NCBI GenBank assembly: GCA_947476335.1 | Contig: CANJQH010000005.1 | Span: forward strand, 26,989 to 90,988 | Source of the DNA: Anaerolineae bacterium | GTDB taxonomy: Bacteria; Chloroflexota; Anaerolineae; J036; Brachytrichaceae | Length of the DNA stretch: 64,000 nt | Direction: 5' to 3' | Part shown: piece after piece, positions 2,602-11,721 of the stretch | Layout of the letters: the number at the start of each line of letters is the position of its first letter | How positions within the stretch are numbered: the first letter of the stretch is position 1 | Program-made: the position numbers and the translations under genes | Notes under the pieces: model-generated | Told to the model about the DNA's origin: nothing | Database searches by the model: none | What the model saw: the letters and a program-made list of their open reading frames with translations, nothing else

Positions 2602-2630
2602 TTGACACATTTCCCTCCCTCCGTTAGTAT
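2602..2630 (+). promoter_or_regulatory. Sigma-70 promoter of the aromatic amino acid operon
   Basis: TTGACA at 2602-2607 and TAGTAT at 2625-2630 with a 17-nt spacer. The expected start near 2637 lies just upstream of the tyrosine-rich leader peptide, so the short 5' UTR and the attenuator form one unit. Confidence 0.75.
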
Positions 2631-2650
2631 CCACACTCGTGGGTTTGAAC

Positions 2651-2740
2651 ATGTGCTTGTACGCAGGCTACCGCTATTATGGCTACTTTAGCAAGGCTAA
2701 AGAGAGCTTACTCGTGCGCGTATTCAGCACGGCAGGATAG
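2651..2740 (+). CDS. Tyrosine-rich leader peptide of the aro operon attenuator
   Basis: ATG 2651 to TAG 2738-2740 encodes 29 residues beginning MCLYAGYRYYGYF. Five of residues 4-12 are tyrosine (TAC, TAC, TAT, TAT, TAC) and residue 13 is phenylalanine. An in-frame GTG at 2639 is an alternative start. The codon run sits between the promoter and the antiterminator segment, as in classical leader peptides: slow decoding of Tyr codons would hold the ribosome upstream of the antiterminator strand. No strong Shine-Dalgarno sequence is visible. The peptide is probably only a translation sensor. Confidence 0.8.
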   Translation: MCLYAGYRYYGYFSKAKESLLVRVFSTAG

Positions 2741-2800
2741 ACGGAACGAAACGAACATCCTACAGGGCGCGGAGCACAGTAAGCTCTGCGCCCTTTTTTT
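2686..2800 (+). promoter_or_regulatory. Tyrosine attenuator: alternative antiterminator and terminator hairpins
   Basis: Three mutually exclusive pairings can be read. A protector hairpin pairs CTTTAGC (2686-2692) with GCTAAAG (2696-2702). An antiterminator pairs 2703-2717 with 2774-2787, 14 base pairs with one bulged C at 2713. A terminator pairs GGGCGCGGAGC (2765-2775) with GCTCTGCGCCC (2783-2793), followed by seven T. The antiterminator uses bases of the terminator stem and loop, so both cannot form together. A ribosome stalled on the Tyr codons would block the protector and free 2703-2717; one that finishes the peptide would cover that segment and let the terminator form. Confidence 0.8.
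2765..2800 (+). terminator. Attenuator terminator upstream of aroH
   Basis: An 11-bp GC-rich stem (one G-T pair) with loop ACAGTAA and a run of seven T at 2794-2800. It lies between the leader peptide and aroH, not after a gene, so it acts as a conditional terminator. Confidence 0.85.
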
Positions 2801-2841
2801 GTGTCACGGCCGTTTCAATACAGCAGGAGGAGTAAATTGAT

Positions 2842-3210
2842 ATGTGGATGCGAGGTGTCAGAGGCGCGACTTGCGCCACAGCCAACAGCAAAGAAGCCAT
2901 CATCGAAACAACGAAACAAATGCTGCAGCGCATTATTGTTGAGAACGACATGCAGCCGGACGAAATCGCCAGCGCATTTTTCTCGACCACGCGCGACCTA
3001 AATGCCGAATTCCCGGCCATCGCTGCACGCCAGCTCGGGTGGACCGATGTGCCGCTCATGTGTATGCACGAAATGGAGGTTCCCGGCGCCTTGCCTCAAT
3101 GTGTGCGAGTGATGGTGCACTGGAACACTGACAAACGGCCGAACCAGATTCGACACATCTATATCAACGGCGCCGAAAAGCTGCGCCCTGACCTGGTGCG
3201 CGAAGGCTGA
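2842..3210 (+). CDS. aroH: Chorismate mutase, AroH type
   Basis: 122 residues, the size of the monofunctional trimeric AroH chorismate mutases (B. subtilis 127). It converts chorismate to prephenate. The N-terminal MRGVRGA carries the active-site Arg equivalent, and HEMEVPGALPQCVRVMVHW matches the family segment with the catalytic Glu and Arg. A strong Shine-Dalgarno sequence, GCAGGAGGAG, lies about 9 nt before ATG 2842. It is the first structural gene after the attenuator and is followed by DAHP synthase and prephenate dehydrogenase, so flux toward tyrosine is controlled together. Confidence 0.93.
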   Translation: MWMRGVRGATCATANSKEAIIETTKQMLQRIIVENDMQPDEIASAFFSTTRDLNAEFPAIAARQLGWTDVPLMCMHEMEVPGALPQCVRVMVHWNTDKRPNQIRHIYINGAEKLRPDLVREG

Positions 3211-3302: not shown

Positions 3303-4385
3303 ATGTCCTTCAAAACCGACGACGTGCGCATTCGCGAAATCAAGGAGCTTGCTCCGCCCGCGCATCTGATGCGCGAATTCCCACTTTCCAACGACGCATC
3401 CAGGGTTGTATACAACGCTCGCGAGGCGATCCACGGCATCCTGCACGGAAACGACGACCGTATGTTCGTCGTCGTCGGCCCATGCAGCATTCACGACACC
3501 CGTGCCGCACTCGAATACGCCGACCGCCTCAAGCTGCTGGCGGACCAGCTGACGAACGACCTCGTAATCATCATGCGCGTGTATTTTGAAAAGCCGCGCA
3601 CGACGGTCGGCTGGAAAGGCCTGATCAACGACCCATATCTGGACGGCTCGTTTCGCATCAACGAAGGCCTGCGCATCGCGCGCGAGCTGCTGCTGGAGAT
3701 CAACTCGCTTGGCCTGCCGGCGGCAACGGAATATCTCGACACAATTTCTCCACAGTACATCGCTGATTTGATCGCATGGGGCGCCATTGGCGCGCGCACA
3801 ACCGAATCGCAGGTGCACCGCGAACTCGCCAGCGGGCTATCCTGCCCCGTCGGGTTCAAAAATGGCACGGATGGCAACATCAAAATCGCTTCAGACGCAA
3901 TGATGGCCAGCCGCATGCCGCACCATTTTCTGTCAGTCACGAAAAGCGGCGTGAGCGCCATCGTTTCGACGGCGGGAAATCCGGATTGCCATGTGGTGTT
4001 GCGCGGTGGAAAAGATCCGAATTACGACGCCGCCAGCGTGCGCGCAGCAACGCAGTTCCTCATCAGCGTCGGGCTGAATCCGCGCCTGATGATCGACGCC
4101 TCACATGGCAACAGCAGCAAAAAACACGAGAACCAGATCCCGGTTTCCGAAGACATCGCCCGGCAGGTCGAACGCGGCGAACACAACATCGCCGGCGTCA
4201 TGATCGAGTCGAACCTGCTGGCCGGCCGCCAGGATATCGTCGCCGGCAAACCGCTGGAGTATGGCAAAAGCGTGACCGACGCGTGCATCGGCTGGGATGA
4301 CACGGTGCAGCTGCTGACGCGCCTGGCCAAAGCCGTGCGCAATCGCCGCGGCATCACCGAAAAGCCGGCGACGGCTGCAGTCTGA
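3303..4385 (+). CDS. aroG: 3-deoxy-7-phosphoheptulonate synthase, class I
   Basis: 360 residues, close to the AroF/AroG/AroH type (about 350). The enzyme condenses phosphoenolpyruvate and erythrose 4-phosphate, the first step of the shikimate pathway. Visible motifs are VVGPCSIHD, KPRTTVGWKG, GARTTESQVHRELASGLSCP, GFKNGTDG and DASHGNSSKKHENQ, which hold the substrate and metal ligands. It follows aroH after 92 nt and precedes tyrA by 5 nt. Allosteric specificity cannot be read with confidence; the tyrA/aroH context and upstream Tyr attenuator suggest a tyrosine-linked isozyme. Confidence 0.94.
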   Translation: MSFKTDDVRIREIKELAPPAHLMREFPLSNDASRVVYNAREAIHGILHGNDDRMFVVVGPCSIHDTRAALEYADRLKLLADQLTNDLVIIMRVYFEKPRTTVGWKGLINDPYLDGSFRINEGLRIARELLLEINSLGLPAATEYLDTISPQYIADLIAWGAIGARTTESQVHRELASGLSCPVGFKNGTDGNIKIASDAMMASRMPHHFLSVTKSGVSAIVSTAGNPDCHVVLRGGKDPNYDAASVRAATQFLISVGLNPRLMIDASHGNSSKKHENQIPVSEDIARQVERGEHNIAGVMIESNLLAGRQDIVAGKPLEYGKSVTDACIGWDDTVQLLTRLAKAVRNRRGITEKPATAAV

Positions 4386-4390
4386 ATCCG

Positions 4391-5278
4391 ATGACGAACG
4401 AAAATTCCGCACCAGACAGCGCACCCGCGCGCACAATCTGCATTGTCGGCATCGGGCTGATGGGCGCTTCCTTTGCCCTGGCGCTCAAAGCACGCGGCTA
4501 CAACGGGCGAATCACTGGCGTTTCGCGCAGCACCGCCACGCGTGACAAAGCGTTGCAGCGCAGCGTCGTCGATTTCGCCACGACCGATCTGGCCGAGGGC
4601 GTGCGCGACGCGGACGTAATTGTGCTGTGCACCCCCGTGCGGCTGCTCGTGGAACAAATCGCTGCAGTTGGCGCACTCTGCCGGCCGGGTGCAATCATCA
4701 CCGACATGGGCAGCACAAAGAGCAACGTCATCGCCGCCATGAACGCGCTGCCCGCGCACGTGCGTGCGATCGGTTCACATCCAATGTGCGGCAAAGAAAC
4801 CGCCGGCATCGACGTGGCCGAACCCGGCCTGTACGAAAACGCGCCATGGATTCTGACACGCAGCGCGCGCACCGACGATGAAGCATTCGCCGTCATACAA
4901 GCACTCGCCGTGCTCGTTGGCGCGCGGCCGCGCGAAATTGATGTGACGCAACATGATGCACTGCTCGCCCACGCCAGCCATCTTCCGTGGGCAGTGTCGA
5001 CCGCGATGGTCTACACCACCGACCATTTTGCTGTCGACCATCCAGCGGTCTGGCAAGTGACCGCGGGCGGCTACCGCGACACCAGCCGCGTCGCTGCAAG
5101 CGACGTCACGATGTGGACGGACATCGCACTGACCAATCAGTCCGCCATCCTCGCGGCCATTCGAGATTTTCAGTTTAGCCTTGATCAGCTGGCCGTGCTG
5201 ATCGAACGCGGCGACGAGGCGGGCCTGCGCTCATTCATCGAACGTGCAGCAGTGGCAAGAAAAGCGAAATACGGGTGA
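4391..5278 (+). CDS. tyrA: Prephenate dehydrogenase
   Basis: 295 residues with an N-terminal Rossmann fold (ICIVGIGLMGASFALALK) and the catalytic segment IGSHPMCGKETAG containing the active-site His. It oxidatively decarboxylates prephenate to 4-hydroxyphenylpyruvate, the committed step to tyrosine. There is no fused chorismate mutase domain, consistent with the separate aroH. No C-terminal ACT domain is visible, so feedback inhibition may be weak or absent, and control may rest more on the attenuator. The start is 5 nt after the DAHP synthase stop. Confidence 0.92.
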   Translation: MTNENSAPDSAPARTICIVGIGLMGASFALALKARGYNGRITGVSRSTATRDKALQRSVVDFATTDLAEGVRDADVIVLCTPVRLLVEQIAAVGALCRPGAIITDMGSTKSNVIAAMNALPAHVRAIGSHPMCGKETAGIDVAEPGLYENAPWILTRSARTDDEAFAVIQALAVLVGARPREIDVTQHDALLAHASHLPWAVSTAMVYTTDHFAVDHPAVWQVTAGGYRDTSRVAASDVTMWTDIALTNQSAILAAIRDFQFSLDQLAVLIERGDEAGLRSFIERAAVARKAKYG

Positions 5279-5432: not shown

Positions 5433-6743
5433 ATGGACAAAACCCTCTCCCGAATCCGCGCACTACAAGGTGTATTGCGCGTGCCGAGCGACCGCAGCAT
5501 CACCGTGCGCGCGACGTTGCTCGGCGCCGTGGCCGACGGCGTCAGCCGTGTGCGCGAGCCGCTCGATTCCGATGACACCAATGCTGCGCTGGACTGCCTT
5601 GCTGGCCTCGGCATAGCGGTGGCAAATCTTTCGAGCATGTGCGATCCGCTTGGATTGCGCATTCCTGGACTTGGGCTACGCGGGCTGCGCGCGCCACGCG
5701 AGACGCTGCACTGCGGTTCGTCAGGCGCAACAATGCGACTGCTGGCGGGCCTGCTGAGCGGGCAGCATTTCGATAGCACGCTCGATGGCAGCGAACAGCT
5801 GCGGCGGCGGCCGATGCGGCGCGTTACGGATCCGCTGGCGGTGATGGGCGCGCACATCGACAGCATTGACGGCAAAGCACCGCTTGCCATTCACGCAGCG
5901 TCGTCACTGCATGCGCTCGACTACGTCATGCCCGTAGCGAGTGCGCAGGTGAAATCGTCGATCTTGCTGGCGGGTTTGTACGCCGACGGCCCGGTGACGG
6001 TGCACGAGCCAGCACCGACGCGCGATCACACCGAGATCATGTTGCGCGCAATGGGCGCAGACATACGCACAGAGCGCAACGCTGACGGCAGTGCGGCGGT
6101 GACTTTGACGCCGCCGACGCGTCTGCGGCCGCTCGACATGCTGGTGCCAGCGGATATTTCGTCAGCGGCATTTTTTCTTGTTGCAGCGGCGCTGTTGCCC
6201 GAATCAAAGCTGACGTTGGTGGAGGTGGGGGTGAACGAAACCCGCACCGGCCTGCTGGACGCGATGCGGCAGATGGGGGTGCAGATTGAACAGCGCAACA
6301 CGCGCACCGAAGCGGGCGAACCGATTGCTGACCTGGTGGTGCACAGCGGCGAGCTGCACGCAATTGAAATTGGTGGCGCGCTGGTGGCGCGCATGATCGA
6401 TGAACTGCCGATTTTCGCCGTGCTGGCGACGCAGGCGCACGGCCGCACTGTAGTTCGCGATGCACAAGAGCTGCGTGTGAAGGAAAGCAACCGCGTCGAA
6501 GGGCTCGTGGCGCAACTGCGCGCGATGGGCGCACAAATTGAAGCAACGATGGATGGCTTTGTCATCAACGGCCCCACCCCGTTGTTGGGCGCAACCGTCG
6601 ACGGTTTGGGCGACCATCGTATGGCGATGTCGCTGGCGGTAGCTGCGCTGGCGGCACAAGGCGACACGTGCATTACGGGTGCGGAGTGCGTAAGCAAGAC
6701 ATACCCGGAGTTCTGGCGTGACTTGGATCGCGTTATGTTTTAA
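5433..6743 (+). CDS. aroA: 3-phosphoshikimate 1-carboxyvinyltransferase (EPSP synthase)
   Basis: 436 residues, standard for AroA (about 430). It transfers the enolpyruvyl group of phosphoenolpyruvate to shikimate 3-phosphate. Motifs include VPSDRSITVRATLLGAVADG at the N-terminus, the loop CGSSGATMRLLAGLL, QVKSSILLAGLYA, and the C-terminal LRVKESNRVEGL and DGLGDHRMAMSLAVAAL. ATG 5433 lies directly behind the AAATCTGAAATCTGAA sequence next to the family A element. It is the fourth structural gene of the operon. Confidence 0.95.
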   Translation: MDKTLSRIRALQGVLRVPSDRSITVRATLLGAVADGVSRVREPLDSDDTNAALDCLAGLGIAVANLSSMCDPLGLRIPGLGLRGLRAPRETLHCGSSGATMRLLAGLLSGQHFDSTLDGSEQLRRRPMRRVTDPLAVMGAHIDSIDGKAPLAIHAASSLHALDYVMPVASAQVKSSILLAGLYADGPVTVHEPAPTRDHTEIMLRAMGADIRTERNADGSAAVTLTPPTRLRPLDMLVPADISSAAFFLVAAALLPESKLTLVEVGVNETRTGLLDAMRQMGVQIEQRNTRTEAGEPIADLVVHSGELHAIEIGGALVARMIDELPIFAVLATQAHGRTVVRDAQELRVKESNRVEGLVAQLRAMGAQIEATMDGFVINGPTPLLGATVDGLGDHRMAMSLAVAALAAQGDTCITGAECVSKTYPEFWRDLDRVMF

Positions 6744-6778
6744 ATCAAACCCGGCTTTTTAGAAGCCGGGTTTGATTT
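6742..6778. terminator. Perfect 16-bp stem-loop after aroA
   Basis: AAATCAAACCCGGCTT (6742-6757) pairs exactly with AAGCCGGGTTTGATTT (6763-6778). The stem begins inside the aroA stop codon. The following sequence is T-rich but interrupted, so this may be a partial terminator or an RNA-stabilising hairpin between aroA and aroE. Its core, ACCCGGCTT-loop-AAGCCGGGT, recurs in the palindrome after the HAD gene near 56271. Confidence 0.55.
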
Positions 6779-6801
6779 AGTTTCTTAATTTTGTTTTGCC
6801 T

Positions 6802-7617
6802 ATGCGAATCGGACTCATCGGCTACCCCGTACAGCACAGCGCCTCGCCACGTATGCAGAACGCTGCATTCGCCGCCGTCGGACTCACAGAATGGACGTAC
6901 GAGCTGTGGCCTACGCCGCTCGACGCACTTGCCGAACGGTTGCGCGAATTGCGAAAAAACCACCACATCGGCGGCTGCAATGTCACCATTCCACATAAAC
7001 AGAATGTGCTCGGCGCCCTCGACGTCCTCAGCGACCACGCACGTATGCTCGGCGCGGTCAATACCATCGTCAAACGCGACGGACAGCTAATCGGTCACAA
7101 CACGGACTGGCTGGGGTTTCTCGCCGACCTGCGCTTCAACGGCTTCGAGCCCGTCGGTGGGCAGCGCGCGCTCGTGCTCGGCGCCGGCGGCTCGGCACGC
7201 GGCATCGTCTACGCACTGCTCAAGTGCGGACTGCGCGTTCACATTGTTAATCGCGATGCCGCGCGCGCCCATTCTCTGGCGCATGACCTGCATCCGCTCG
7301 GCACCGTGTCCGCCATCACCACCATGCACCAGGCCGGCGCCATCGACCTGATCATTAACTGCACGTCCGCCGGCATGGATCCACACCTCGACACCACGCC
7401 ATGGCCGCTCGATCTGCCCTTCCCGCGACAGGCATTTCTGTATGACCTCGTCTACAAACCACGACAGACTGTGTTGATACAACAAGCCGAGGCAGCCGGC
7501 GCGCGCTGCGCCGGCGGAATCGGCATGCTCGCCGAGCAAGGCGCCGCCGCCTTTGAACTCTGGACTGGCGTCCCCGCCGCGCAGGTTGCGCCTGTCATGC
7601 GCGCCGCGCTCGGCTAA
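6802..7617 (+). CDS. aroE: Shikimate dehydrogenase
   Basis: 271 residues from ATG 6802 (a TTG 6 nt upstream is also in frame). It reduces 3-dehydroshikimate with NADPH. The substrate-binding start IGLIGYPVQHSASPRMQNAAF and GGCNVTIPHK (with the catalytic Lys), the Rossmann loop VLGAGGSARGIVYAL, and GIGMLAEQGAAAFELWTG are all recognisable. The usual SPxxHN reads SPRMQN here, a His to Gln change worth noting but outside the catalytic pair. It follows the aroA hairpin. Confidence 0.93.
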   Translation: MRIGLIGYPVQHSASPRMQNAAFAAVGLTEWTYELWPTPLDALAERLRELRKNHHIGGCNVTIPHKQNVLGALDVLSDHARMLGAVNTIVKRDGQLIGHNTDWLGFLADLRFNGFEPVGGQRALVLGAGGSARGIVYALLKCGLRVHIVNRDAARAHSLAHDLHPLGTVSAITTMHQAGAIDLIINCTSAGMDPHLDTTPWPLDLPFPRQAFLYDLVYKPRQTVLIQQAEAAGARCAGGIGMLAEQGAAAFELWTGVPAAQVAPVMRAALG

Positions 7618-7644: not shown

Positions 7645-8826
7645 ATGCTGCGATTTCTTACTGCCGGCGAGTCGCACGGCCCCGCGCTGACCGCCATCCT
7701 CGAAGGCATGCCCGCGGGCCTGCCACTGCACTCCGAATTCATCGACCGCGACCTGGCGCGCCGCCAGCAGGGCTACGGCAGCGGCGGTCGCATGAAAATC
7801 GAACGCGACCATGCGCGCATCACCAGCGGTGTCATGGCCGGCCACACTACGGGCGGGCCGATCGCCTTCACCGTTGAGAATCTCGACTACGTGAAGTGGG
7901 CCGAACGCGACATCGAAGCGATGACGATTCCACGGCCGGGCCATGCCGATTTGACCGGCGCGGTGAAATACGGCTACCGCGAATTACGCCTGGCGCTCGA
8001 GCGCGCCAGTGCCCGTGAAACAACGATGCGCGTCGCCGTCGGCGCCGCATGTCGCGCACTGCTGGCCGAATTCGGCATCATCATCGGCGGCTATGTCGAA
8101 AGCATCGGCGAAGTCGGCATCGGCGAAACGACGAGCGGGCCAATCGACTACGCCGCGCGCTTCGCCGCAGCCGAACAATCGGACGTGCGCTGCTACGACA
8201 TTGCTCGATCCGAACGAATGCGCGCGCGCATTCGCCAGATCATGTCAGAAAAAGACACGCTCGGCGGCGTCATCGAGGTCGTCGTGCTGAACGCACCCCC
8301 CGGCCTCGGCAGCCATGTGCACTGGGACCGCCGGCTGAGCACGAAGCTGGCCGCCGCGGTAATGAGCATCCACGCGGTAAAGGGCGTCGAAATCGGCGAC
8401 GGGTTCGCCGAAGCGCAGCTGCCCGGCACGCAGGTACAAGACGAGCTGTTTCTTCAAGATGGCGAACTGCGCCGGCGCAGCAACCACGCCGGCGGTATCG
8501 AGGGCGGCATCAGCAACGGCGAGCCAATCGTGCTGCGCGCGGCATTCAAACCGATCGCCACCACACTCAACCCACTCGATTCCGTCGATCTCGCAAACGG
8601 CGAAGCAGTGAAGACAAAGTACGAACGCAGCGATTTCTGCCAGGCGCCGCGCGCGGTGCCGATCGTCGAGGCAATGGTGGCCCATGTGCTCGCGGAGGCG
8701 CTGCTCGAAAAACTTGGCGGGGACTCGATCGACGAAATGAAGCCGCGCTTCGCAGCGCTGCGCCGCATGCGGCTCGACGAGCTGCCAATGGACGCTGCGC
8801 CGTGGCGCTTCGGGTTCCAGCCATGA
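7645..8826 (+). CDS. aroC: Chorismate synthase
   Basis: 393 residues, the long form of the family (about 360-400). It forms chorismate by 1,4-elimination of phosphate from EPSP using reduced FMN. Diagnostic segments are LTAGESHGPALTAILEGMPAG, RRQQGYGSGGRMKIE, and RASARETTMRVAVGAACRALL with the family SARET motif. It overlaps the next gene by four bases (ATGA), indicating translational coupling with the aroK-aroB fusion. Confidence 0.96.
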   Translation: MLRFLTAGESHGPALTAILEGMPAGLPLHSEFIDRDLARRQQGYGSGGRMKIERDHARITSGVMAGHTTGGPIAFTVENLDYVKWAERDIEAMTIPRPGHADLTGAVKYGYRELRLALERASARETTMRVAVGAACRALLAEFGIIIGGYVESIGEVGIGETTSGPIDYAARFAAAEQSDVRCYDIARSERMRARIRQIMSEKDTLGGVIEVVVLNAPPGLGSHVHWDRRLSTKLAAAVMSIHAVKGVEIGDGFAEAQLPGTQVQDELFLQDGELRRRSNHAGGIEGGISNGEPIVLRAAFKPIATTLNPLDSVDLANGEAVKTKYERSDFCQAPRAVPIVEAMVAHVLAEALLEKLGGDSIDEMKPRFAALRRMRLDELPMDAAPWRFGFQP

Positions 8827-10475
8827 GCCGCGCCATCGCCCTCGCCGGTTTCATGGGCACCGGCAAGACCACGATCGGCGTCGAGCTGGCGGCGCTGCTC
8901 GACATGCCTTTCGTCGACGCTGATGTCGAACTCGAACAGCGTGAAGGGCGCAGCATTTCCAAAATCTTCGCTATCGATGGCGAGCCATATTTCCGCGCAC
9001 GCGAGCGTGAGCTGCTGCAGGAACTCAGCCAGCGCAGCGACATCGTCCTCGCCACAGGCGGCGGCATGGTGATCGATGCCGAAAACCGGCGGCTGCTGCT
9101 GGAGCGCTGTCTGTGTATCGGGCTGAGCGCACCGGCCGATGTGATTCTTGAACGCGTCGGCGGCGCCGAAGCGGCCCAGAAGCGGCCGATGCTGCGCAGC
9201 GCCGACGTGCGCGCACGCATCATCGAGCTGCTCACGGCGCGCGCGCCGGCCTACGCCGAGCTGCACTACCGCATCGAAACCGCCGGGCGCACACCGAACG
9301 AACTCGCCATGGAGATTGCCACCATTGCGCGCGCTGAAGTGCGCCGCATCCCGGTTGCCATTCCACCAGCCAGCCGCTACGACATCGTCATGGGCGATGG
9401 AATGCACGGCCAACTCGGCCGCATGATTGCGCAGCGCGGCTGGAGCGGCCCTGCAGCAATCGTCAGCGACGACGTCACCGGCCCTCACTTCGCAGATGCG
9501 CTGCGTAAATCACTGCGCGCCACCGGCATTGACGCATTCCTCGTCACCACACAGCATGGGGAACAGAACAAGACACTGGCTACGGTCGAATCGTTGTATC
9601 GCGCGTTCAGCGAACACGGCATGGATCGTCAGTCAGCGGTGATCGCACTGGGCGGCGGCGTGCTCGGCGACACCGCCGGCTTTGCAGCCGCGACCTATCT
9701 GCGCGGCGTGCCATTCGTTCAGATGCCGACGACGCTATTGGCGATGGCGGATTCAAGCATCGGCGGCAAAGTTGGTGTGGACACGCCATTCGGAAAAAAC
9801 CTCGTCGGCGCATTCAAGCAGCCCGACCTCGTCGTGATGGACGTGCGCTGCCTGCGCACGTTGCCAGTGATCGAGCTGCGCTGCGGCCTGGCTGAAATCA
9901 TCAAAGCCGCGCTGATTCGAGGCGGCGACGACTACGCACAGATTCGCGCATTGGAACACAGCCCGCTCGGGAGCCTTGATGTGAGCACTCCCCATCCCGA
10001 TGCCGTCGATGATGCGCTCCTGCATCTGCTGGTGAACGCAATTCATCTGAAGCGCGAAGTAGTGCAAGAGGACCCGGAGGAGCGCGGGCGGCGAGCCGTG
10101 CTGAACCTCGGCCACACTTTTGGCCACGGCATCGAAGCGTACAGCGGGCTGAAACTGAAGCACGGCTATGCAGTTTCGCTTGGCATGGTGTGTGCACTGC
10201 GGCTTTCCGAAGCTCTTTGCCTATGCGAATCCGAATTCGTCGAGGATGTACTCCACATTCTGCGCGGCGTCGGCCTGCCCACAAGCACACACGATGTCGC
10301 TGACCTGCTGCCGGGCTGGGACATCGGCGAAATCTGGCGGCTGATGCAGTCCGACAAAAAGAAGCGCGCCGGACGGCTGCGCTTCGTGCTGATCCGCAGC
10401 GCCGGCGACGTCTTCGTCCGCGGCGACGTCGACGAAGTCGCAGCCCGCGCGGCGCTGGCTGCGTTGAATCGCTGA
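8823..10475 (+). CDS. aroKB: Bifunctional shikimate kinase / 3-dehydroquinate synthase (AroK-AroB fusion)
   Basis: 550 residues from ATG 8823, which overlaps the aroC stop. Residues 1-175 form shikimate kinase: Walker A GFMGTGKTT, DADVELEQREGRSI, and the LATGGGMV motif. Residues about 185-550 form 3-dehydroquinate synthase: VIALGGGVLGDTAGFAAATYLRG, SSIGGKVGVDTPFGKNLVGAF, NLGHTFGHGIEAYSGLKLKHG. The open frame extends upstream inside aroC to 8049, but that part is an Arg-rich shadow of aroC. The two pathway steps (2 and 5) are not consecutive, so the fusion probably reflects co-expression. The fusion is uninterrupted with no frameshift. Confidence 0.94.
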   Translation: MSRAIALAGFMGTGKTTIGVELAALLDMPFVDADVELEQREGRSISKIFAIDGEPYFRARERELLQELSQRSDIVLATGGGMVIDAENRRLLLERCLCIGLSAPADVILERVGGAEAAQKRPMLRSADVRARIIELLTARAPAYAELHYRIETAGRTPNELAMEIATIARAEVRRIPVAIPPASRYDIVMGDGMHGQLGRMIAQRGWSGPAAIVSDDVTGPHFADALRKSLRATGIDAFLVTTQHGEQNKTLATVESLYRAFSEHGMDRQSAVIALGGGVLGDTAGFAAATYLRGVPFVQMPTTLLAMADSSIGGKVGVDTPFGKNLVGAFKQPDLVVMDVRCLRTLPVIELRCGLAEIIKAALIRGGDDYAQIRALEHSPLGSLDVSTPHPDAVDDALLHLLVNAIHLKREVVQEDPEERGRRAVLNLGHTFGHGIEAYSGLKLKHGYAVSLGMVCALRLSEALCLCESEFVEDVLHILRGVGLPTSTHDVADLLPGWDIGEIWRLMQSDKKKRAGRLRFVLIRSAGDVFVRGDVDEVAARAALAALNR

Positions 10476-11105: not shown

Positions 11106-11274
11106 CCCGTTAAATGCGAAAGTTTTTGTATGCGCTGTGCTTCGCCAAAAATTGACCTACATGAAACCACGACGCAAGAATCATGGCACAAACTTCATGA
11201 ATATTCAGTGCGTAACACTGGCAAAAAGCTGACGAAGTGCAGACATGATGGCGGCGTTCTACAATCGCATCCGC

Positions 11275-11721
11275 ATGAGTACGCACATTCTGGTCCTGCA
11301 CGGACCCAATCTGAACCTGCTCGGCCTGCGCGAGCCCGAGGTGTACGGACGCACGACACTGGCGGACATCGACCACGCGCTCGCCGAAATCGCCGCAGCG
11401 CGCGGCGCGGTGCTGACGACGCTGCAAAGCAACCACGAAGGCGCGCTCATCGACGCGCTTCATGCGGCCCGCACGACAACGCGCGGTGTTCTGATCAATC
11501 CAGGCGGCCTGACGCACACCAGCGTGGCTCTACGCGATGCCATCGCCGGCATCGCCCTGCCCTGCGTCGAGGTCCATCTTTCAAATGTGCATAAGCGCGA
11601 GGAGTTCCGCCATCATTCGTTCATCTCCGCCGTCGCCGTCGGCACCGTCGTCGGCTTCGGCTGGCGCAGCTACACCCTCGGTCTGACGGCGCTGCTCGAC
11701 CATCTGGAAGGCGCAAAGTGA
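11275..11721 (+). CDS. aroQ: 3-dehydroquinate dehydratase, type II
   Basis: 148 residues from ATG 11275 (an in-frame ATG at 11245 would add ten atypical residues). It dehydrates 3-dehydroquinate to 3-dehydroshikimate, the missing step of the pathway encoded just upstream. Diagnostic motifs: [20 protein letters not shown] with the catalytic Tyr, [28 protein letters not shown] and [18 protein letters not shown] with the catalytic His. It is about 800 nt downstream of aroKB and may have its own promoter. It overlaps the MFS gene by four bases (GTGA). Confidence 0.95.

Follow-up and report, generated by a model that had tools for sequence, protein, structure and literature searches.

The stretch of DNA analysed here, 64,000 nucleotides from an Anaerolineae bacterium and called the window below, carries between positions 2602 and 2800 what is most probably a ribosome-mediated transcription attenuator, sensing charged tRNA-Tyr with a contribution of tRNA-Phe and standing before an operon of aromatic amino acid biosynthesis. 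Judged by its sequence, the mechanism class, ribosome-mediated attenuation, is very likely, and from the sequence parts, their conservation and covariation, and the pathway genes behind them we infer ribosome stalling and terminator read-through. When charged tRNA is plentiful, the ribosome would run through the leader, the RNA arm at 2703–2717 would be covered or retaken by two protector helices, P1 and P2, and with this arm occupied the terminator at 2764–2800 would stop RNA polymerase. A shortage of charged tRNA-Tyr or tRNA-Phe would make the ribosome stall at codons 7–13 and hold P1 and P2 apart, so that the arm would pair with 2774–2787; the terminator could then not form, and the aroH operon would be transcribed.

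Organisation of the probable attenuator locus

All elements of the locus lie on the forward strand. A sequence scan places a sigma-70-type promoter-like site, TTGACA-N17-TAGTAT, at 2602–2630, with the -35 box TTGACA at 2602–2607, a 17-nt spacer and the -10 box TAGTAT at 2625–2630; ten of its twelve positions match the consensus, and two such sites, one of them on the other strand, occur within 2440–2860, the average in shuffled sequences being 0.3. A tRNA-Thr gene (CGT) at 2372–2444 on the minus strand is divergent from this site. Direct reading gives a leader ORF of 29 codons at 2651–2740, MCLYAGYRYYGYFSKAKESLLVRVFSTAG, the ATG of which lies 20 nt past the -10 box and shows no clear Shine-Dalgarno sequence, in contrast to the strong one of aroH, AGGAGGAG, at 2825–2832. 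The control codons Tyr4, Tyr7, Tyr9, Tyr10, Tyr12 and Phe13 occupy 2660–2689. Among the 2,833 start-to-stop readings of 10–60 codons on both strands of the window, four contain at least five Tyr in 12 codons, and all four are alternative starts of this one ORF. The first-pass annotation, made from the letters of the sequence, had named a consensus promoter and a 29-codon leader with these same residues, and both are recovered, the former as a promoter-like site.

The arrangement recurs in the 19 aligned members of the window's family, all of which have a perfect TTGACA, a spacer of 16–17 nt and a TA-box upstream of the leader ATG, the distance from the -10 box to the ATG being 13–20 nt. The anti-Shine-Dalgarno duplex of the leader reaches -3.3 kcal/mol or weaker in 18 of the 19. 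Transcription starts, as a rule, some 7 nt past the -10 box. The 5' UTR of the leader would then measure about 6–13 nt, and the leader mRNA, with a start site predicted from the promoter-like site, is predicted to be nearly leaderless. Translation of the ORF would begin from this short 5' end.

The RNA from 2637 to 2804 folds 2.56 standard deviations better than dinucleotide shuffles, 2 of 200 of which equalled it. In the predicted fold, the outer protector stem P1 (2652–2731; 2652–2657/2726–2731 and 2659–2664/2718–2723) joins the start-codon region to the stretch directly past the antiterminator arm. The inner protector hairpin P2, the 1:2 pairing (2681–2708; 2681–2684/2705–2708 and 2686–2692/2696–2702), found by folding and covariation, begins within the last Tyr-Phe codons, and its base occupies the AGCU of the antiterminator arm. 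This arm, segment 2, lies inside the leader ORF at 2703–2717 and, again by fold and covariation, forms an antiterminator of 14 bp, with 2703–2712 and 2714–2717 pairing with 2774–2787. Between the leader ORF and aroH follows a GC-rich intrinsic terminator (2764–2800; scan and covariation) with a stem of 12 pairs, 2764–2775/2783–2794, and seven T at 2794–2800. As the antiterminator partner 2774–2787 sits inside the terminator, the two structures are mutually exclusive. The protector hairpin, the 14-bp antiterminator and the overlapping terminator with seven T of the initial description are thereby all recovered.

When nascent RNA was folded with the leading edge of a stalled ribosome in place, the antiterminator was the resulting fold in all seven sequences tried (of the 19 family members) and, in the window, at all six stall codons tried. 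Window RNA ending after segment 3 has the antiterminator as its best fold also without a ribosome or with a ribosome at the stop codon, and only in the full-length window RNA does static folding favour the terminator; the antiterminator forms without a ribosome in three of the seven sequences (the window, L012 and L044). The footprint assumed for a ribosome at the leader stop codon is downstream of the arm at 2703–2717. Since static folds do not separate the states, the switch would have to be kinetic, as is the decision between terminator and antiterminator in classical attenuators.

The downstream operon

Pfam and NCBIfam profiles identify seven genes behind the terminator, all on the forward strand: an aroH-type chorismate mutase (2842–3210; PF07736, TIGR01796), a DAHP synthase of the AroG type (3303–4385; PF00793, NF006723), prephenate dehydrogenase (tyrA, 4391–5278; PF02153, PF20463), EPSP synthase (aroA, 5433–6743; PF00275), shikimate dehydrogenase (aroE, 6796–7617; PF08501), chorismate synthase (aroC, 7645–8826; PF01264) and a fused shikimate kinase/3-dehydroquinate synthase (aroKB, 8826–10475 with an approximate start; PF01202, PF01761, PF24621). 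The aroQ gene (11245–11721) stands apart from the operon. Directly after aroA and before aroE lies a 19-pair hairpin at 6740–6780, which may be an internal terminator or an RNA-stability element and could split the operon. The attenuator had been said to drive everything from aroH to aroKB; the gene identities hold, and we infer that its control reaches along the operon, that of the last genes being no more than presumed because of this intervening hairpin.

Covariation within the family

Aligning relatives was one of the checks proposed for the attenuator: P2, the antiterminator and the terminator covary, and the control codons of the relatives are mixed Phe and Tyr. In the alignment of the 19 family members, for which the structure was taken from the window, 94.7% of cells are paired in P2 (six cells changed on both sides), 94.3% in the antiterminator (double changes at three pairs, in a single cell for each) and 99.1% in the terminator (14 cells changed on both sides). 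Controls in which the partner was slid by 1–3 columns reach at most 68.9%, 44.7% and 63.3%, respectively, scoring lower partly because the structure comes from the window. For each of the three helices, the percentage paired and the covariation score were reached by none of 500 shuffles, and the number of double-change pairs by 24 (P2), 2 (antiterminator) and 63 (terminator) of 500. Examples of antiterminator arms are AGCTTATT with AATAAGCT in L012, AGCTTGCC with GGCAAGCT in L044 and GGCTTGCC with GGTAAGCC in L040; the antiterminator pair 78–144 is broken in nine of the 19.

Cognate and swapped arms were also compared, giving for P1 mean energies of -19.0 vs -14.4 kcal/mol (permutation p of about 1e-4, ten chosen representatives) and for the antiterminator a permutation p of 0.004, both permutations ignoring relatedness. 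The cognate partner of P1 ranks first in 7 of 19 members, and the window's own partner is fourth of 19. The last Tyr-Phe codon pair, TACTTT, is invariant in all 19 aligned members, and little sequence is conserved outside helices and codons. One family member (L042/L188) has the leader and the stem and lacks the T-run.

Distribution among related genomes

Upstream of aroH or DAHP synthase genes, 120 non-redundant loci were gathered, and a leader was scored as a short ORF with at least six aromatic residues in ten within 420 nt upstream. Such an aromatic leader is present in 61 of the 120 loci; elsewhere, counting both strands, 17 of 15,399 short ORFs qualify, and one of these 17 background ORFs, L022, is apparently a true leader just past the 420-nt limit. 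Aromatic leaders precede 40 of 48 terminators that stand before the aroH or DAHP synthase gene and none of 24 other terminators. When the loci are grouped manually, by the titles of the records and the kinship of the genomes, the leader occurs in 20 of 23 loci of the window's family, in 19 of 22 of other families of its class, in 10 of 17 Chloroflexales-type loci and in 12 of 24 loci of other or unspecified titles. One of the three family misses is cut by a contig end, and the other two come from a genus with an attenuator before another DAHP synthase; the remaining seven Chloroflexales-type loci have exactly five aromatic residues in ten. By the same six-in-ten criterion no leader was found in seven loci of Dehalococcoidia or in 27 of Planctomycetota, none of the latter exceeding three aromatic residues in ten. 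Six Oscillochloris- or Chloroflexales-type loci (L062, L068, L072, L074, L076 and L082) have in common a short leader like MPNLANSFSFYYFTGPHMVRSLRTV, which with five aromatic residues in ten falls just below the cut-off.

A covariance model, R1, built from the 19 family members and searched at E <=0.01, matches 34 of 99 genomes, 26 of 28 in the window's family and 8 of 71 outside it. Seven of the family genomes matched are absent from the model (G001, G003, G004, G008, G010, G014 and G019), and two genomes of the family, G015 and G022, gave no match at this threshold. By coordinates, seven of the eight matches outside the family lie upstream of aroH; in G037 the distance is about 0.7 kb and an ORF intervenes. 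The match in G053 (L191), located outside aro operons and without a leader or an aro gene, was taken as chance. A distant search of phage records gave 163, and among the 20 matches listed the DAHP synthase stretch was the only part of the query matched.

The gene behind the element varies between genera. It is a chorismate mutase in g1, g7 and g8 and an AroG-type DAHP synthase in g3, g5 and g6, and in six genomes of g2 and g4 the next gene after the R1 match reads as a DAHP synthase, which bears a ferredoxin-like domain in all three cases examined by Pfam (L184, L185 and L186); one of these six genomes, G003 (L186), has the frame MHGAFSFTGYWYHVSFGNAKGSLPGHARSSR, below the aromatic cut-off. With chorismate mutase, AroG-type DAHP synthase and DAHP synthase with a ferredoxin-like domain behind the same element, the gene that follows this one kind of switch is not fixed.

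T-box matches and other branches of the pathway

T-boxes bind tRNA directly and need no translation. The attenuator locus itself has no Rfam match at gathering score, T-box (RF00230) and Trp and Phe leaders included, and at E <=10 a single match, to the trpB motif (E 6.9, below the cut-off). Elsewhere in the window's genome there are three T-box matches (L193, L194 and L195), all below the Rfam gathering score. The best of them lies upstream of trpE, where no Trp leader was found, and has GAA-UGG at the specifier position, UGG being, by the specifier-reading rule that we apply here, a likely Trp specifier; the other two precede genes that read, by sequence alone, as leuS and serS. A GGAAUGGAC motif is shared with the trpE T-boxes of G012, G018 and G022 in the window's family and was not seen at the trpE T-box loci of G041 and G045. 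Across the 45 genomes searched, T-box matches at E <=1e-6 occur in all, above the Rfam cut-off in 24. Of 33 T-box loci gathered, 6 contain trpE, that of the window's genome included. With a T-box match before trpE and a probable attenuator before aroH, tRNA charging is apparently sensed in both ways for a single aromatic pathway in this genome. The first-pass view that T-boxes or proteins take this role in most lineages outside the proteobacteria needs a twist, as the genome with the probable attenuator also has three sub-gathering T-box matches. A Trp T-box before trpE would fit the lack of Trp codons in the window's leader, yet 40 of the 69 leaders of the composition set described below hold Trp. 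A T-box before trpE has already been published for Chloroflexi (Dehalococcoides, PMC2494555).

Of the genes beyond chorismate mutase, tyrA lies inside the operon and pheA on another contig. Upstream of pheA in the window's genome (L128, reverse complement, about 1313–1489), a GTG ORF with FAGFSLFWFSQF overlaps the start of pheA at TAATG, and arms GAGCGGA and TCCGCTC flank its Phe run; it is a possible Phe leader. No such ORF adjoins pheA in the 19 other pheA loci examined in the family, where weak ORFs with five aromatic residues in ten occur at least about 0.7 kb before pheA in L146 (two) and L149 (one). A division of labour with a Phe leader before pheA was dropped, given that none of the 19 relatives has an adjoining ORF.

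Amino acid specificity and alternative explanations

The composition set comprises 69 leaders with at least six aromatic residues in ten, 62 from the 120 loci and seven from R1 loci. Tyr and Phe are both present in all 69, which makes Phe plus Tyr the conserved signal; the summed codons of the other 68 leaders are 208 Tyr, 298 Phe and 46 Trp. The window's leader, with five Tyr, one Phe and no Trp, is the second most Tyr-biased of the set, after L028. The chance of at least five Tyr in six at the overall rate is 0.03, ignoring shared ancestry, and the Tyr bias of the window relative to the other leaders is modest. Phe and Tyr are what the pathway yields past chorismate mutase; the window's leader reads as a Tyr-heavy version of this joint signal. 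A specificity for Tyr alone as a conserved trait is rejected, the leaders of the relatives being mixed. Of the ribosome-mediated tyrosine attenuator originally proposed, the mechanism class stands on conservation, covariation and pathway genes, and tyrosine alone proves too narrow.

How much weight tyrosine carries in the window depends on whether its excess is more than drift. An attenuator for Phe and Tyr jointly, or for aromatic residues in general, that gives Tyr no role of its own is a serious alternative, to which we give a little less than an even chance. It would account for the presence of both residues in every leader, for the predominance of Phe in the other 68, for an invariant Tyr-Phe at the last control codons and for the alignment of Tyr9 of the window with Phe in L006 and L008 (RYYGYF vs RFYGYF). 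Against this stand the five Tyr among the six control codons of the window, the single leader of 69 that is more Tyr-biased, and the placement of tyrA in the operon with pheA on another contig.

The other explanations are all improbable. The likeliest of them, a plain constitutive terminator that sets a basal level behind an incidental ORF, would suit the lack of a clear Shine-Dalgarno sequence, but many families retain the aromatic ORF, ahead of differing genes, together with a covarying antiterminator, and exchanges of F to W in the alignment, two base changes each, preserve the aromatic class. Slightly less probable is a trans-acting small protein, besides or instead of attenuation, like the reported peTrpL of Sinorhizobium meliloti. 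The GKGSLLARG-like stretch conserved in the window's family would favour it; the nucleotides that encode it are, however, also those of the antiterminator arm, and this explains its conservation; outside the family the peptide differs. The least probable is control of the terminator by a metabolite-binding riboswitch or a T-box with a coincidental ORF: T-box matches exist elsewhere in the genome and a folded leader does lie upstream of the terminator, but Rfam offers for the locus nothing beyond the one match at E 6.9, and the scarcity of conserved sequence outside helices and codons also speaks against it. The reading retained for the window is an attenuator responsive to the charging of tRNA-Tyr, with tRNA-Phe contributing.

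Significance and comparison with known systems

A broader reading, which we consider to have an even chance, is that of an old attenuator class of Chloroflexota, separately evolved, which would be a nearly leaderless, joint sensor of Phe and Tyr charging, would have had the genes behind it swapped (chorismate mutase and two DAHP synthase types), would share the pathway with a Trp T-box at trpE, and would here be retuned to tyrosine with seven genes on one switch. The element accounts for a group of short aromatic ORFs and offers a handle, readable from sequence, on aromatic amino acid control in mostly uncultured bacteria. An attenuator and a likely Trp T-box in one genome would also provide a natural test of tRNA-binding RNA against translating ribosome, branch by branch.

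The classical attenuators of Enterobacteria at pheA/pheST and trp work by 1:2, 2:3 and 3:4 pairings and carry control codons for the amino acid produced, and the locus described here resembles them in both respects. It differs from them in having no Rfam Trp_leader or Phe_leader match, in its two-part protector, P1 plus P2, in an antiterminator arm placed within the leader ORF, ahead of its stop codon, and in its predicted near-leaderless start. In the literature consulted, leader-peptide attenuation is placed in Proteobacteria, Actinobacteria and some Firmicutes, a 2010 survey adding Firmicutes to systems known from the first two; according to a 2013 study, the attenuation motifs may have originated in gamma-proteobacteria. 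If a Phe/Tyr attenuator is deeply conserved in Anaerolineae and Chloroflexales, attenuation would be older, or would have arisen more than once. Titles and abstract starts among the matches listed name no such attenuator for Chloroflexi, an earlier mention being possible.

The nearest characterised case is aroR-aroF in Corynebacterium glutamicum (Neshat et al. 2014, via PMC11802643 and PMC4046766), where a leader peptide with Phe and Tyr codons likewise precedes a DAHP synthase operon and ribosome stalling at these codons is described. The likeness is one of description: that system belongs to Actinobacteria, three aromatic residues are named there compared with six in the window, and AroR (Phe-Tyr-Phe) responds to Phe and not to Tyr according to a review (PMC11802643). 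Leaders that begin at the 5' end or lack a ribosome binding site are likewise reported for S. meliloti trpL (PMC7298713) and C. glutamicum ilvBNC (by a title cited in PMC4046766), which serve other amino acids in other phyla. The Dehalococcoides trpE T-box (PMC2494555) senses tRNA charging for the same pathway as the attenuator; a T-box is absent from the attenuator locus, and the window's genome has its T-box match before trpE. Beyond the first-pass annotation, what is new here is the predicted near-leaderless start, a switch that stands before different first genes, and a trpE T-box match, below the Rfam cut-off, in the same genome.
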